Of a DNA stretch of 5,180 nt, positions 1 to 5,180 are shown one piece after another. The DNA comes from an uncultured Synergistia bacterium (GTDB taxonomy: Bacteria; Eremiobacterota; SpSt-956; JAKJGF01). The notes beneath the pieces were generated by a model. The model was not told the DNA's origin, ran no database searches, and worked only from the letters and a program-made list of their open reading frames with translations. The stretch's first letter is position 1, and each line of letters opens with the position of its first letter. The stretch is taken from positions 1 through 5,180 of the forward strand of contig CALARM010000800.1 of assembly GCA_937888925.1 (NCBI GenBank). Direction: 5' to 3'. A program made the position numbers and the translations under genes.

Positions 1-2528
1 ATGAAGAACCCGGCGGAATAGATGTTGATTTAAATGAAGAAATATCTGAAATAGATACATTGTCTGAGGTTTCTGAAAAAAGTGAAAAAGAACATGCAGA
101 AAAGAAAGACAGCAAATCACCGGGTAAAACAAGTATGTTTTCTCAACAGCTTTTATCTGTGATAAAACAGAAAGAATATGAAGAAGTTAAAGAAGATGAA
201 TATGATAAGGAAGATGTCGAGGTAGAAGAAGAAGTAAAAATAGAAGAAAAAGAAGAGTCCGTAAAAGAAATAAAAGAAGAATCATCTGTTTTGACAAAGA
301 AGCTTACTGAGGGCACAGATAAAAAAATTACCCGTAAGTCCAGTATAGCTGATTTTTTACGCAGTAAAACAGGACTATCGGAAGAAGAATATGAAGTGAA
401 CAGGGAACTTGTAACAAAGGGGAGAAGAAAGTCAGGTCTTTCCGAAGAATTTCTTGCTTCATTAAAAGCCACTTCTTCGTCGTCAGTAAAATTTTCAGGA
501 GATACAACAATAAAAGAAGTCGCTTTCCCTTTTTATAAAAAACCTCTTACAGAACCTCCCCTGGGTGTTTACGAAGAAGTGGATATGCTCAAAAACAACA
601 GATATGAAATCAGAGAGTTAATACACAGCGATTGTTACGGTGCAGTATATAGAATTCAGGACTATGACGAAAAAGATGATGAAAAATCTATAAAAATATT
701 AAAGGAAATACAATATAAAGGGAATAGTAAAGAAAAAACAGCTTCAATAGTGAATAGATTTCAGCAGGTAATGGGAAAACTCATTACTTTAAAACATACA
801 GGATTGACTGAAATAGAAGATTATTTTCATATCACAGGAGAGAATGGCACAGAACTTCGTCTGTGTATAATTATGGAATATATTGAAGGTATGTCCTTCA
901 GTGAAGTCGCTATGACCTATTATGGAGAAGACGGGAAAAGCCAGATGCCTGCTAAAACAGTCTTAGGAGTAATCAGTAAGGTCTATGATGCTCTCGGTTA
1001 TTTGCACAGTAATTCTGTTGTATATGGTGATTTACGTCCTTCAAATTTATTACTTGCTTCAGATGGTAATATAAAATTTTTGAATTATGGTATAGCAGAT
1101 ATTTTTCGTGATATAAATGATGATGTTTATCCATGCAGGGGAACCTATGGCTATGTTGCTCCCGAGTTAAAGAGTTTATCTGAAGGAGATTTTAAGTCAG
1201 ATATATTTTCCCTGGGAGCGGTTATGTATTTTATGCTTACAGGGAATAATCCTGAGGAAATATCTTATAAATTTCAACCATTAAGAAAGCTGAACCCTTT
1301 CCTGTCACCGCAGATAGAACGATTTGTTCAATCAATGTTAAGCCCTTCTAACAGACCTGATATAAGTCAGATTATAAGGGTTATGGATAATATGAATTTT
1401 TTTGAAGCAGTGAAAGATAAGGTTCCGGGCAGAACCGATACGGTGCAGTTAAAGGCTCCTGATAAGGATCCTTATAAAGAAAGTCCTGGCGCTGCCGGTC
1501 TGGAGCAGTTAAAGAGTAATATATCCGAAATTTCGGAAACTATTAAAAAAGTTCCTCCTCAACTTTTGTTGATTGCTTTCGCTATTGTTTTTGCCGTTGT
1601 ATTTATGGTTGTATGGACAGTTGGATATATACAGAGTAGAGGCAGTTTTTCCGATTTTTTATATGTTTTTTCTTCTGAAACAAAAGAACTCGTAGCTCTG
1701 GATCGGAAGAGCGGCAAAGTCTGCAGGCAATTGCAGCTGGGAGACTGCAGAAGCTCTATGGCTTTTTCTGCAACCAGAAAAGAATTGTATGTTTTAAATA
1801 CTATGGGAAAAATTTTTATTATAAATCTCCCTGAATTTGTAGTAAAAAAGTTTATTGCACTTGATAATACACCTTATGCCATTACTATGTTAAAGGATGA
1901 GAAGACCCTCTGTGTCACTACCCCTGCGTCATCGGAGTTAGCTTTATATTCCATTGAAGAAAGAAAAAAACTTGCAGGTTTTGTTGTAGGAAAATTTCCT
2001 ACTGATGTATTATTATTAGAGAAAGAAAATATGTTACTTGTAACAGATTTTAAGGAAAATAAAGTCTACGGAATGAATCTCAGGGATAATAAGTTAGTCC
2101 TTAATATAGATACAGGCCAGGGACCAAAGAATATGTTATATATTCCTGACAGGGATATAGTTTATATAACAAACTGGATATCAAACGATATTACCGTTAT
2201 TCATATTCCCAACAGTAAACTGGCTTATACTATTCCTGTCGGTACCAATCCCAGTTCAATAGCTGCTTCCCCGGATTATAAGAATGTCTATGTAGCAAAT
2301 CAGAAAGCCAATAGCTTCTCTGTTATAGATGTTGATACTCATAAAGTGACCAATGAAATAAAAGTTGACGGAGAACCTACTGTAATAATGGCAGATAGCA
2401 AGAATATATATGTAGGTCTAAAAAAAGCAGGTAATAATAAAGTGGTTCTGCTTAACAGAACGACTTTTGGCCTGGAGAAAGATTTCAGTCTTGCCGGTTT
2501 CCCTATAAATCTCCTTTTACTTAAGTGA
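1..2528 (+). CDS. Membrane pseudokinase with C-terminal YVTN beta-propeller (5'-partial)
   Basis: The reading frame (codons from base 3) is open to the left edge and its first residues match the linker of the downstream paralogue, so the true start lies outside the window. The in-frame TTG at 60 has no ribosome binding site and is probably not a start. Counting that TTG as residue 1, the order is: Glu/Lys-rich linker (1-90), conserved linker motif (91-139), kinase-like domain (about 181-448), spacer, one TM helix (502-524), and seven beta-propeller blades (533-822). Kinase landmarks are a degenerate glycine loop keeping only G194, beta-3 Lys K215, YGD at 322-324 instead of HRD, R326 in place of the catalytic-loop Lys, N329, NYG at 342-344 instead of DFG, APE at 367-369, D381 and R432. 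The DFG Asp change suggests weak or absent phosphotransfer. The inferred topology is kinase-like domain in the cytoplasm, propeller outside, which suits a sensor or scaffold. The substrate and ligand cannot be read. The protein ends at TGA 2526-2528. Confidence 0.9.
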   Translation, partial: EEPGGIDVDLNEEISEIDTLSEVSEKSEKEHAEKKDSKSPGKTSMFSQQLLSVIKQKEYEEVKEDEYDKEDVEVEEEVKIEEKEESVKEIKEESSVLTKKLTEGTDKKITRKSSIADFLRSKTGLSEEEYEVNRELVTKGRRKSGLSEEFLASLKATSSSSVKFSGDTTIKEVAFPFYKKPLTEPPLGVYEEVDMLKNNRYEIRELIHSDCYGAVYRIQDYDEKDDEKSIKILKEIQYKGNSKEKTASIVNRFQQVMGKLITLKHTGLTEIEDYFHITGENGTELRLCIIMEYIEGMSFSEVAMTYYGEDGKSQMPAKTVLGVISKVYDALGYLHSNSVVYGDLRPSNLLLASDGNIKFLNYGIADIFRDINDDVYPCRGTYGYVAPELKSLSEGDFKSDIFSLGAVMYFMLTGNNPEEISYKFQPLRKLNPFLSPQIERFVQSMLSPSNRPDISQIIRVMDNMNFFEAVKDKVPGRTDTVQLKAPDKDPYKESPGAAGLEQLKSNISEISETIKKVPPQLLLIAFAIVFAVVFMVVWTVGYIQSRGSFSDFLYVFSSETKELVALDRKSGKVCRQLQLGDCRSSMAFSATRKELYVLNTMGKIFIINLPEFVVKKFIALDNTPYAITMLKDEKTLCVTTPASSELALYSIEERKKLAGFVVGKFPTDVLLLEKENMLLVTDFKENKVYGMNLRDNKLVLNIDTGQGPKNMLYIPDRDIVYITNWISNDITVIHIPNSKLAYTIPVGTNPSSIAASPDYKNVYVANQKANSFSVIDVDTHKVTNEIKVDGEPTVIMADSKNIYVGLKKAGNNKVVLLNRTTFGLEKDFSLAGFPINLLLLK
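328..1273 (+). repeat. Tandem paralogue duplication, copy 1 (overlap with copy 2)
   Basis: This stretch corresponds position by position to 4235-5180 at a constant offset of 3907 bp, with no net indel. It covers the end of the linker and the kinase-like domain up to a shared Ser/Tyr/Lys codon run. The first 29 bp (328-356) are identical to 4235-4263. Elsewhere the copies differ at many silent and some replacement sites. Weaker protein similarity extends further left: both copies have LLSVIKQKE in the linker. Confidence 0.9.
330..476 (+). other. Conserved linker motif in the first gene
   Basis: This 49-residue segment begins TRKSSIADFLRSKTGL and ends GRRKSGLSEEFLASLKATS. It is identical at 45 of 49 positions to residues 541-589 of the paralogue, higher than the adjoining kinase-like domain. 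It contains two Arg/Lys-Ser sites (RKSS and RRKS) of the type basophilic kinases phosphorylate. That similarity is suggestive only. I do not recognise a named domain. Confidence 0.75.
600..1403 (+). other. Kinase-like domain of the first gene, degenerate active site
   Basis: The bacterial Ser/Thr kinase fold can be followed from the N-lobe start (NNRYEIREL) to the NRPD of the last helix. It keeps the beta-3 Lys (ILKEI), the hinge-region IMEYIEG, APE, SDIFSLG and NRPD. It lacks the first two loop glycines (His and Asp instead), the alpha-C Glu (Val in an ungapped reading of RFQQVMGKL), the HRD Arg (Gly) and the DFG Asp (Asn). The HRD Asp and the following Asn are present, so residual activity or nucleotide binding cannot be excluded. 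Confidence 0.85.
1563..1631 (+). other. Single transmembrane helix
   Basis: About 23 uninterrupted hydrophobic residues (502-524 counted from TTG 60, LLLIAFAIVF onward) follow a Lys-Lys pair and precede the propeller. The positive-inside rule suggests that the kinase-like side is cytoplasmic and the propeller is outside. No cleavable signal peptide is expected from this internal position. Confidence 0.85.
1656..2525 (+). repeat. Seven-bladed YVTN-type beta-propeller repeats
   Basis: Seven repeats of about 40-42 residues start near residues 533, 574, 615, 657, 699, 741 and 781. Each opens with a strand such as FLYVF, ELYVL, TLCVT, MLLVT, IVYIT, NVYVA or NIYVG. Blades 5 and 6 are the most typical, with IVYITNWISNDITVI followed by IPVGTNPSSIAASPD. 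This is the YncE/40-residue YVTN pattern, a fold used for protein or ligand binding. The seventh blade ends at the stop codon, so the propeller looks complete. Confidence 0.85.
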
Positions 2529-2548
2529 AAAATTGATCAAAGATTTCC

Positions 2549-2577
2549 TTGACACATTGGTTATTCCCCTGTAAAAT
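2549..2577 (+). promoter_or_regulatory. Sigma70-type promoter of the second paralogue
   Basis: A perfect -35 box TTGACA (2549-2554) is followed after exactly 17 bp by TAAAAT (2572-2577), one mismatch from the consensus -10. Transcription would begin near 2584, giving a leader of roughly 33 nt before ATG 2617. It lies wholly in the 88-bp gap, so the downstream gene probably has its own promoter. No hairpin followed by a T-run is visible between the upstream stop and the promoter, so read-through from the first gene is also possible. Confidence 0.75.
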
Positions 2578-2606
2578 TTATATATGTTTTATTAAAATTT
2601 ATTGAT

Positions 2607-2611
2607 AAGGA
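2607..2611 (+). promoter_or_regulatory. Ribosome binding site (AAGGA)
   Basis: AAGGA sits 5 nt before ATG 2617 and 11 nt before ATG 2623. A weaker AGGA (2613-2616) sits 6 nt before the second ATG. The stronger site and better spacing favour 2617, which would give the N-terminus Met-Phe-Met-Ile. The two-residue ambiguity does not affect the domain content. Confidence 0.65.
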
Positions 2612-2616
2612 CAGGA

Positions 2617-5180
2617 ATGTTTATGATCTTTGAAAAGGGAGATTTTATTCAAAATAAATATCAGGTAGATACAATACTATATTCCGATAATGAAGGTGTT
2701 ATTTATAACTGTAAATACAGAAAAGGCTATAAAGTAGTAAAACAGATCCATTCTTCAGAAGATAAACAACCCGATAATTTAGATAAACTTTTTTCTGACA
2801 GGTGCAGTGAATTAAAGAAATTAAACCACAGGAATCTCGTTTTAATAGAGGATTTTTTTATAGAAGACCGTTCTTATTTTGTTGTAATGGAACAGATAAA
2901 AGGAAAAACACTTGAAGAAATCTATAAGAATGATTATAAAGGCAGAGTTTTTCCTTCAGATGTACTGATGCAGTATATGTTAAAGGTATGTGACGGGTTA
3001 AAATATATGCATGGCCAGAAACCTCCTGTTTTATATGGTGCTCTGGCGCCGGAAAAAGTTATTACAGGAGGAGGGGGTGTAGTTAAACTCTTAAATTACG
3101 GTCTCGGCGCTACGGTCAGACATGGGTTTAATAAAGGTGTAAATGGTTTTAGTGCTCCGGAACAGACAGAAGAAAAAAAAGATGACATATCTTCGGATAT
3201 CTATGGAATAGCCTCTCTTATGTATTATTTATTAAGCGGAAAAAAATATGAGGCAGGTACAAAAAAAATAGAGACTTTAATGAGTTCTAATAAGAATGTG
3301 TCAAAAAATCTCGCAGAACTCATTGCAAAGTGTTTATCAAAAAAGATTTCTAACAGACCTGATACAGGTGATTTCTCCCGCCAGTTATCCAAGTTATATC
3401 TTTCTGAAACAGTGTTAAAAGCAACAAGGGGATTTTCTGTGGCATCTCATGATGAAGAAGACGATGAAATAATCCCTTCTGAAAAAGAAGAATCTTCTGT
3501 TGAAACAGAAAAAAGTAAGAAAGAAACATCCGAAATTGCCGGTAAAGCAGAAAAAAGCAAGAAGGAAGAAGCTGAAATTTCTGTGGAAGAAAAAGACAGG
3601 GAAACAGATTCTGCTACTGCGGTAATAGAGGAAGAGAAGAAAAAGAAGAAGAAGAAAAAAAAGAAAAAAACAGTTACCGATGATTTGAAAGATACGGTGG
3701 GAGAAGAAGCCGGTCAGATAGATGTGGGAGAAGAAAAAGAAGATTCGGAAGGCACAGACAGGGTGGATGAAGAAGCAGAACCGGATATGAAGCCTGAAGA
3801 AGTTAAACCTGAATTGCCCGAAAGTCCTGAAAGTGATAGTAAAGAAAAGAAGAAGAAAAAGAAAAAGAAAAAAAAGGAATCTCTTTCTTCTGAAACAGAA
3901 GAAGTAAAGGAAGAATTTGATGAAATTACAGAAGAGTATGAAGAACCGGACGAAATTGCTGATATAGATACTATAGATAGTAAAGAAGAAATCGTAGAAA
4001 AATCTGAATTACCGGAGAAAAAAGGGAGTAAACCTTCACTTAAGACAAGTGCTTTATCCATGCATTTGTTATCTGTTATAAAACAGAAAGAAGAAGATGT
4101 TGAAGAAGTCGGAGAAGAACCGGAAACAGATACGGAAGAGGAAGTAACGGAAAAAATAAAAGAAGTCAGTAAAGAAGAAATAAAAAAAGATTCTCTATCT
4201 GTTCCCGGACAGATCGGTAAAGATGGCAAACCGGTTACCCGTAAGTCCAGTATAGCTGATTTTCTTAGAAGTAAAACAGGACTTACGGAAGAAGAATATG
4301 AAGTAAATAAAGATTTAGTTCTGAAAGGTAGAAGAAAATCCGGTCTTTCTGAAGAATTTCTTGCCTCATTAAAAGCCACATCCGGCAGTTCTTCTATAAA
4401 AACCGGGGCAGATGCCATAAAAGACGTATTCTTTCCTTTTTATAAGAGACCATCTACAGATCCTCCCTATGGTGTTTATGAAGAGGTGGATATGCTTAAA
4501 AATAACAGATATGAAGTAAGAGAATTACTTCAGAAAGACTGTTATGGAGGTATATATACAGTTCAGGACTATGATGAACAGGATGACGGGAAATCTACAA
4601 AGATATTAAAAGATATTCAATATAAAGGAAGTAATCCGGAGAAAGTAAAAAGCCTTATAGATAAGTTCCAGAAGGTATGTGAGAAACTAACTAAGTTAAA
4701 TCATACCGGTCTTGTAAAGATAGAAGACTATTTTTATACACCGATGGATAACGGCGCAGGTGTGCGATTTTCTTTGATTATGGAATATATTGAAGGTATG
4801 TCTTTTAATGAAGTAGCCAGAACCTATTATAATGAAGATGCAAAGAGTCAGTTACCTGCAAAAACAGTATTCGGCGTCATAAGCAAGGTTTATTCCGCTC
4901 TGGAATATTTGCATAATAACGGTGTCGTCTGCGGCGATATACGTCCTTCCAATCTTATACTTACATCTGACGGAAATATAAAGTTTTTAAATTACGGACT
5001 GGCAAATATATTTTATGGCCTTACGGATGAAGTCTATCCTTTTAAAGGGGTTTACGGATATGTAGCGCCGGAATTGAGATGCCTTCCTGACGGTGATTTT
5101 AAATCCGATATATTTTCCCTGGGAACTGTAATGTATTTTATGCTTACAGGAAGTAACCCTGAGGATATAAGTTATAAATT
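2617..5180 (+). CDS. Double pseudokinase membrane protein paralogue (3'-partial)
   Basis: The frame is open from ATG 2617 to the right edge (854 full codons) with no stop. The start has AAGGA at 2607-2611, 5 nt upstream. A second ATG at 2623 is possible, with AGGA 2613-2616 in front of it. An N-terminal kinase-like domain (about residues 9-268) has G27 as the only loop glycine, beta-3 Lys K42, YGA at 140-142 for HRD, K147 where Asn is expected, NYG at 160-162, APE at 180-182, D194 and R247. A Glu/Lys/Ser linker (about 273-540) carries Lys tracts at 341-351 and 411-420. The conserved linker motif follows at 541-589. The second kinase-like domain (from about 631) has K665, CGD at 772-774, R776, N779, NYG at 792-794, APE at 817-819 and D831, and is cut by the edge. 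By analogy with the upstream paralogue, about 420 more residues with a TM helix and propeller should follow. That is inference. The protein is probably non-catalytic or atypical, and its partners are unknown. Confidence 0.92.
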   Translation, partial: MFMIFEKGDFIQNKYQVDTILYSDNEGVIYNCKYRKGYKVVKQIHSSEDKQPDNLDKLFSDRCSELKKLNHRNLVLIEDFFIEDRSYFVVMEQIKGKTLEEIYKNDYKGRVFPSDVLMQYMLKVCDGLKYMHGQKPPVLYGALAPEKVITGGGGVVKLLNYGLGATVRHGFNKGVNGFSAPEQTEEKKDDISSDIYGIASLMYYLLSGKKYEAGTKKIETLMSSNKNVSKNLAELIAKCLSKKISNRPDTGDFSRQLSKLYLSETVLKATRGFSVASHDEEDDEIIPSEKEESSVETEKSKKETSEIAGKAEKSKKEEAEISVEEKDRETDSATAVIEEEKKKKKKKKKKKTVTDDLKDTVGEEAGQIDVGEEKEDSEGTDRVDEEAEPDMKPEEVKPELPESPESDSKEKKKKKKKKKKESLSSETEEVKEEFDEITEEYEEPDEIADIDTIDSKEEIVEKSELPEKKGSKPSLKTSALSMHLLSVIKQKEEDVEEVGEEPETDTEEEVTEKIKEVSKEEIKKDSLSVPGQIGKDGKPVTRKSSIADFLRSKTGLTEEEYEVNKDLVLKGRRKSGLSEEFLASLKATSGSSSIKTGADAIKDVFFPFYKRPSTDPPYGVYEEVDMLKNNRYEVRELLQKDCYGGIYTVQDYDEQDDGKSTKILKDIQYKGSNPEKVKSLIDKFQKVCEKLTKLNHTGLVKIEDYFYTPMDNGAGVRFSLIMEYIEGMSFNEVARTYYNEDAKSQLPAKTVFGVISKVYSALEYLHNNGVVCGDIRPSNLILTSDGNIKFLNYGLANIFYGLTDEVYPFKGVYGYVAPELRCLPDGDFKSDIFSLGTVMYFMLTGSNPEDISYK
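2641..3420 (+). other. N-terminal pseudokinase domain of the second gene
   Basis: This is the most degraded of the three kinase-like domains. VVKQI supplies the beta-3 Lys and LNHRNLVLIEDFF matches the N-lobe segment after helix C. The catalytic loop reads YGALAPEK, so the catalytic Asp, the Lys and the Asn are all replaced. DFG is NYG. FSAPEQ, SDIYGIASLMYYLLSG and SNRPD show that the C-lobe framework is kept. This pattern fits a folded but non-catalytic domain. Confidence 0.85.
3508..3579 (+). repeat. Short internal linker repeat (EKSKKE, 42-nt period)
   Basis: The peptide pattern EKSKKExxEI occurs at 3508-3537 and again at 3550-3579, 14 codons apart. The third positions differ between the two units. 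It probably reflects local expansion of the disordered charged linker. Confidence 0.55.
3637..3669 (+). repeat. Poly-lysine tract 1 (11 Lys)
   Basis: Eleven consecutive AAA/AAG codons lie in the linker of the second gene after three Glu codons. The tract contains the in-frame heptamer A AAA AAG (3657-3663). The mixed codons keep the DNA from being a pure A homopolymer, but the tract is still prone to slippage and sequencing error. Confidence 0.9.
3847..3876 (+). repeat. Poly-lysine tract 2 (10 Lys)
   Basis: Ten consecutive Lys codons, preceded by Lys-Glu, lie 177 nt after the first tract ends. This tract also ends in an in-frame A AAA AAG heptamer (3870-3876). The surrounding linker is strongly acidic, so the protein alternates blocks of opposite charge. 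Confidence 0.9.
4237..4383 (+). other. Conserved linker motif in the second gene
   Basis: This is the counterpart of 330-476, located 41 residues before the second kinase-like domain in both proteins. Only four residues differ, while about 15 codons differ silently, which points to purifying selection on the peptide rather than recent copying. Confidence 0.75.
4507..5180 (+). other. Second kinase-like domain of the second gene (partial)
   Basis: This domain is homologous to the kinase-like domain at 600-1403. In the first 45 residues from NNRYE I count 31 identities. Its catalytic loop reads VCGDIRPSN and its metal motif NYG, with YVAPEL and SDIFSLG retained. The window ends shortly after the SDIFSLG region, so the last C-lobe helices are missing here. 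Confidence 0.85.

Follow-up and report, generated by a model that had tools for sequence, protein, structure and literature searches.

Tandem genes for receptors that join two pseudokinase modules to a YVTN-type propeller, with signs of sensor exchange among their relatives

PknD of Mycobacterium tuberculosis joins a kinase fold inside the cell to an outer beta-propeller sensor through a transmembrane (TM) helix; it is activated by N-lobe dimerisation and its propeller is highly symmetric and six-bladed (PMC3601408). Bacterial pseudokinases are called largely unexplored by experiment in a 2025 review of their families (PMC12599244), on which the following also draws. MviN (ActPs3), a membrane protein of M. 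tuberculosis that is essential for peptidoglycan synthesis, carries one pseudokinase domain with VALT for VAIK and activation-loop deletions; once phosphorylated by PknB, it recruits FhaA. The mainly actinobacterial ActPs1 proteins have all three catalytic motifs substituted and many add a C-terminal PQQ-related domain, DYD pseudokinases replace the beta3 Lys by Arg and carry a DYD motif, and DLHK pseudokinases have no TM segment and have lost the beta3 Lys. Here we analyse a 5,180-nucleotide stretch of contig CALARM010000800.1 from an uncultured bacterium, hereafter the window. Its open reading frame (ORF) listing with translations shows two tandem plus-strand genes, A then B, both partial, each of which encodes part of a receptor with two degenerate kinase modules, one TM helix and a propeller.

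A preliminary description of the window, made from its letters alone, had proposed that each complete protein of about 1270 residues carries two kinase-like modules inside and a YVTN propeller outside. Gene A matches residues 443-1283 of the protein P0008 exactly and gene B residues 1-852 of P0001; gene A thus has the predicted N-terminal kinase and gene B the predicted TM helix and propeller. The two outcomes that had been named as contrary to the proposal, a gene A product lacking the kinase-like domain or a gene B product lacking TM helix and propeller, were looked for in the full proteins and not found. P0008 and P0001 share the order first kinase module (K1), variable linker, conserved linker, second module (K2), one TM helix and propeller, and each contains two stretches that Pfam assigns to Pkinase. 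The estimate of length was close, the actual figure being 1283 residues for both. The collinearity of the shared parts was borne out at 65% identity across 414 residues of linker and kinase; the gene A kinase is 26% identical to the first kinase of gene B.

The window pair is not an isolated case: judged by sequence, it belongs to a wider family in which single-module cousins also occur. A protein search with gene B gave 44 proteins at E ≤ 1e-3, 13 of which form a close group of at least 40% identity, the remaining matches reaching at most 32%. Searching with C-terminal halves added the doubled proteins P0045, P0046 and P0047 and the single-module P0048 (best 120 of 370 matches), and searching with P0048 added 26 more single-module proteins, P0154-P0179 (best 120 of 268). 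The two-kinase plus YVTN architecture sought in other sequences was thereby found in at least 16 doubled members (some incomplete), and the family also has at least 27 single-module members; each search scored the roughly 8000 candidates with most shared words, so further members are possible. Fragments (P0007 and P0013, doubled; P0170, P0177 and P0178, single) were excluded from the TM, ectodomain, sensor-tree and change-point counts, leaving 38 of 43 members.

The kinase modules are degenerate, as had been supposed. With motif positions set by alignment to solved kinases, K2 of gene A reads YGDLRPSN against HRDVKPAN and NYG against DFG and has Val in place of the alphaC Glu, and K1 of gene B reads YGALAPEK against HRDIKPQN and again NYG against DFG. 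The HRD Asp of K1 is lost in 16 of 16 doubled members, and at its DFG Asp position 13 of 16 carry Asn and the other three Asp; all 14 readable cases have Arg or Lys at the alphaC position and keep the beta3 Lys (P0012 begins inside K1 and its K1 N-lobe was left uncounted). In K2 the DFG Asp is Asn in 15/15 readable members and none of 16 has the alphaC Glu; the only member to lose the HRD Asp, the loop Asn and the beta3 Lys (here Arg) of K2 is P0047. The single-module kinases have DFG Asp replaced by Asn and HRD Asp by Tyr in the 26 readable of 27 members, and keep both alphaC Glu and beta3 Lys in the same 26. Set against an active Hanks-type enzyme, the protein kinase fold is present, the HRD Asp is absent from K1 and present in most K2 (14/15 readable), and the metal-binding DFG Asp is Asn in most K1 (13/16), in K2 and in the single modules. 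Fold-search matches were filled by the propeller for gene A and by K1 for gene B, K2 standing outside this comparison, and the PASTA kinase model NF033483 (cut-off 450 bits) scores 145.7 for P0008 and 148.2 for P0001, on the kinase part only. No module that we read is a canonical kinase, but K2 retains enough for possible nucleotide binding.

A more surprising property, invisible from the window alone, is the apparent exchange of the TM-propeller cassette. P0001, P0002 and P0003 are 92-98% identical in K1 and 92-97% in K2, with propellers at 19, 38 and 20% (domain-wise identities cover 11 of the 13 rows of set A1, when 17 members were known); the sensor of P0003 is of the gene A type, 72% identical to that of P0008, and sliding identity drops directly after K2. 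A tree of the cytoplasmic parts of 14 doubled proteins joins P0001-P0003 (100/99), and a sensor tree of the same proteins plus P0048 joins P0001 with P0004, P0003 with P0005, P0006, P0008 and P0009, and P0002 with P0047 (bootstrap 100 each). The approximately unbiased (AU) test rejects carriers of the beta-type sensor as a single cytoplasmic clade (p 9.8e-5) and rejects the sensor clades P0001-P0003 (3.5e-53), P0001-P0002 (1.3e-5) and P0001-P0006 (2.6e-6). Exchange also spans doubled and single-module receptors: the doubled P0046 is 93, 89 and 86% identical in the ectodomain to the singles P0166, P0168 and P0169 and 25-26% identical in the membrane-proximal kinase, and the doubled receptors are rejected as one sensor clade (p 8e-52; 38 proteins, singles included). 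The reverse discordance occurs in P0160/P0166 (kinase 95%, ectodomain 21%) and P0157/P0162 (94 and 22%). In the 38-protein sensor tree long branches meet and support for P0002 with P0047 falls to 90/53, and the deep joins are therefore less certain than that of P0046. Mapped on the kinase tree, sensor groups drawn at 40% identity require 14 changes against a minimum of 8. In all 27 discordant pairs (identity of 80% or more in one half and of 45% or less in the other; overlapping pairs, not 27 events) the identity change point falls between 54 and 18 residues ahead of the TM helix, so the exchanged unit takes in the TM helix and some of the juxtamembrane segment. Taken together these sequence data indicate that juxtamembrane segment, TM helix and propeller have been exchanged as a unit between receptors that share a cytoplasmic part.

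P0008 and P0001 each have one strong hydrophobic segment, at residues 964-982 and 952-970, and in 38/38 unfragmented members the best such segment lies between kinase part and propeller with 296-315 residues after it; that of P0173 is weak (1.68, next best 1.32). The propeller presumably faces outward. P0008 scores above the cut-offs for both PF21783 and PF10282, and P0001 falls below the former (23.2 vs 27.1) and passes the latter (24.2 vs 21.7). The YVTN repeat model TIGR02276 (cut-off 27.85 bits) is passed by five of seven proteins (P0008 52.4, P0001 55.7, P0046 71.9, P0048 68.2, P0166 71.7) and not by P0002 (23.9) or P0047 (26.3). In the fold search the gene A propeller, with seven blades in its model, matches propeller folds; the closest solved propeller by sequence, 1l0q from an archaeal surface-layer protein, is also among the tied best by fold. 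The ectodomain thus shares repeat type and fold with YVTN/YncE-type propellers (1l0q, TIGR02276, PF21783). Gene A bears a beta-type and gene B an alpha-type sensor, and in the related pair P0009/P0002 the gene B counterpart carries a gamma-type sensor.

Compared with the known systems, the receptors resemble PknD in having a single TM segment between the kinase part and a C-terminal propeller, the propeller fold being seen for gene A. They differ from it in their two degenerate modules, which by their motifs are probably not catalytically competent, and in their propeller, which is of YVTN type and is modelled with seven blades, not six. As in MviN, a membrane protein contains a dead kinase domain, the scaffold role being that of MviN. 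Like ActPs1 they are pseudokinases; unlike ActPs1 they keep the beta3 Lys (K1 14/14 readable, K2 15/16), so that not all three motifs are substituted, and the module is doubled. The Arg typical of DYD pseudokinases occurs in K2 of P0047 alone, and unlike DLHK pseudokinases the family has a TM segment and keeps the Lys. A full-text literature search, judged by titles and abstract starts and with subscription papers mostly outside, found no description of a YVTN propeller fused to tandem pseudokinases, and a word search of the review (PMC12599244, 2025) found no "propeller", "tandem" or "Eremiobact". The novelty lies in known kinds in a new combination. Tandem kinases in one chain also occur outside the doubled-pseudokinase family, in P0049 (Candidatus Brocadia sp. 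WS118), where both domains have HRD and DFG and no propeller is present.

With moderate confidence we read these proteins as paralogous dead-kinase receptors that signal as scaffolds or allosterically through a partner kinase and whose sensor cassettes are swapped. A propeller outside the cell would bind a ligand or partner, and binding would alter how the pseudokinases oligomerise. The pseudokinases in turn would act on a separate active Ser/Thr kinase, as its scaffold or its allosteric activator; the Ser motifs of the linker may be substrate or docking sites of that kinase, as in the PknB-MviN-FhaA relay. Exchange of sensors, by recombination, would rewire the input and leave the output unchanged. 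More tentatively, and with considerable doubt, we consider that the family could form a combinatorial repertoire of phosphotransfer-free receptors, in which a fixed dead-kinase hub, single or doubled, meets interchangeable propellers at a fixed juxtamembrane junction and so diversifies the recognition of changing surfaces, neighbours or phages. Several points weigh against the favoured reading. Parts, degeneracy and exchange are read from sequences and the signalling steps from analogy. K1 of P0011, P0012 and P0045 reads DYG, though the HRD Asp is absent there too; K2 keeps HRD Asp and loop Asn in 14/15 and beta3 Lys in 15/16, so that nucleotide binding or unusual catalysis is conceivable. The ectodomain of gamma type (P0002, P0047) lies below the YVTN cut-off and its propeller fold is presumed, and K/R are more numerous before the TM segment in 30/38 members, a modest positive-inside bias. 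The AU groups were defined after the identities had been seen, and sensor groups at 60% identity need 23 changes against a minimum of 21, a small excess.

The residues kept in K2 are also what would be expected if K2 were an unusual active enzyme, Mg-independent or an atypical phosphotransferase, or one of nucleotide transfer, with K1 (HRD Asp lost in every doubled member) as its regulatory pseudokinase, much as in a JAK-like pair. New chemistry in bacterial pseudokinases is covered in the review (PMC12599244); the uniform loss of DFG Asp and alphaC Glu in K2 and the absence of both Asp residues from the 26 readable single-module cousins make this improbable. A role as an adhesion or surface anchor, in which surface-layer or matrix material is held by the propeller, itself merely tethered to cytoplasmic structures by the pseudokinases, would suit the likeness to 1l0q; YVTN/YncE-like propellers are however found across many functions, and two conserved kinase-fold modules with a linker Ser block exceed what an anchor would appear to need, so that we regard it as unlikely too. 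The discordant sensors themselves could be artefacts, either chimeras of metagenome assembly or the outcome of sensors evolving faster than kinases, since the family sequences are metagenomic or of unnamed source and were judged from assemblies. Rate alone cannot yield the P0046/P0166 case or the rejected topologies and, given also the change points, was ruled out as the whole cause; P0005 and P0006, from different sources, carry the identical combination, and the breaks of all 27 discordant pairs, which are not independent, cluster in a single short zone. An artefact thus seems very improbable. A defence-system reading of PADLOC matches to Mad6, PD-T4-6 and MkoA (three proteins, best 25 rows each) was not adopted, because the matches fall on the kinase domains, that to MkoA continuing across the charged linker in the doubled proteins, and the remaining components of such systems were not seen; the NCBIfam antiphage model MADS6 stays far under its cut-off (115.9 and 128.5 vs 460). 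A defence role of the receptors is still conceivable.

The family joins dead kinases directly to a sensor, with a doubled module, and, if scaffold or allosteric signalling is correct, makes signalling across the membrane without ordinary phosphotransfer chemistry testable. Its natural sensor-swap chimeras would reveal which junction leaves a receptor intact and offer ready-made exchange points for synthetic receptors.

From an evolutionary point of view, a tree of 8 K1, 9 K2, 11 single and 17 intact kinases places each class in one group, joins K1 with K2 at 96/92 and splits the three degenerate classes from the intact kinases at 98/98. It took in 9 of 14 doubled and 11 of 24 single unfragmented proteins; the intact kinases were picked by RD/GD and DFG/NFG-like motifs, turned out to carry [HFY]RD and D[FY]G without exception (17/17), and were flagged in five cases for an unlike letter make-up. 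Another kinase tree put the single P0048 with a different long branch at weak support and was not used for singles. The simplest and most likely reading is that K1 and K2 arose by internal duplication of one already degenerate module, which fits their grouping together. Against it, K2 with the singles (p-AU 0.087) and K1 with the singles (p-AU 0.27) survive the AU test, and the order of duplication is for this reason not firm. Under duplication, the three DYG K1 modules would be reversals, or the Asp would have been lost more than once. Among the intact kinases read for this tree, those nearest the singles (P0180-P0186, P0188, P0189) have FRD instead of HRD, so loss of the His may have preceded that of the catalytic Asp.

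As for distribution, the phylum-bearing source names (P0006, P0007, P0174, P0178) all read "Candidatus Eremiobacterota bacterium", a name that NCBI taxonomy places under phylum Vulcanimicrobiota; that of P0167 is "bacterium ADurb.Bin363". In GTDB species genomes, searched with two peptide patterns and the 13-row set A1, the best 80 of 208 relatives held no member, all being at most 29% identical; this absence applies to members with the two exact patterns. Viral contigs searched with gene B and with set A2 gave no match. P0002 and P0009 are both listed from a 13974-base contig, P0006 and P0007 from one of 18523 bases, and the doubled P0004 and single P0154 from one of 38602 bases. The tandem pair of doubled genes that had been pointed out in the window holds, and close pairs probably recur in relatives (P0002/P0009, P0006/P0007), a shared contig being deduced from equal size.

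Table 1. Positions of features in the window
Feature	Positions	Strand	Remarks
Gene A	3..2528	+	5' end open; 841 residues, C-terminal part of the 1283-residue receptor P0008
Gene A K1			N-terminal module, beyond the window
Gene A conserved linker block (TRKSSIADFLRSKTGL..., GRRKSGLSEEFLASLK)	321..479	+	basophilic-looking Ser motifs
Gene A pseudokinase 2 (membrane-proximal)	576..1430	+	
Gene A K2 catalytic-loop equivalent YGDLRPSN	1023..1046	+	Asp and Asn kept
Gene A K2 DFG equivalent NYG	1083..1091	+	Asp to Asn
Gene A transmembrane helix	1566..1622	+	
Gene A YVTN-type propeller, beta-type sensor	1644..2525	+	seven blades in model
Sigma-70-like promoter TTGACA-17-TAAAAT	2549..2577	+	11/12, A-B gap; consensus match only
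Gene B	2623..5180	+	3' end open; 852 residues, N-terminal part of the 1283-residue receptor P0001
Gene B pseudokinase 1	2623..3447	+	
Gene B K1 catalytic-loop equivalent YGALAPEK	3034..3057	+	HRD Asp to Ala, Asn to Lys
Gene B K1 DFG equivalent NYG	3094..3102	+	
Gene B variable charged linker	3448..4227	+	25% E, 20% K; low predicted local distance difference test (pLDDT) score
Gene B linker poly-Lys tracts	3637-3669 (11 Lys), 3847-3876 (10 Lys)	+	uninterrupted, mixed AAA/AAG codons
Gene B conserved linker block	4228..4386	+	
Gene B pseudokinase 2	4480..5178	+	cut by window end
Gene B K2 motifs	CGDIRPSN 4930-4953; NYG 4990-4998	+	
Gene B TM helix and propeller (alpha-type sensor)			beyond the window

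The ORF list starts gene B at TTG 2602, and the full protein P0001 begins at ATG 2623, 94 bases separating the two genes. The near-consensus sigma-70 promoter in this gap hints that gene B may have its own promoter and the tandem genes separate transcription; promoter-like sites scoring at least 9 number 3 in the gap region against 2.5 expected. Antisense ORFs at 143-472 and 3714-4418 lie opposite the linkers and were not accepted as genes.

The acidic, poly-Lys linker is of low predicted order and, in the models, ends in the conserved block, itself with pLDDT below 50 in genes A and B. The pattern IAxFL[RK]xK is present in 16/16 doubled members and LS[ED]xFLx[SG]LK in 15/16 (absent from P0047). 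In the closer members the block holds TRKSS and RRKSG motifs, which look like putative sites for basophilic kinases, given the site preference of such kinases. Poly-Lys runs of at least five occur in 13/16 doubled members (none in P0045, P0046 and P0047). Such runs often slow ribosomes, and the tracts of gene B have similar lengths in close relatives.

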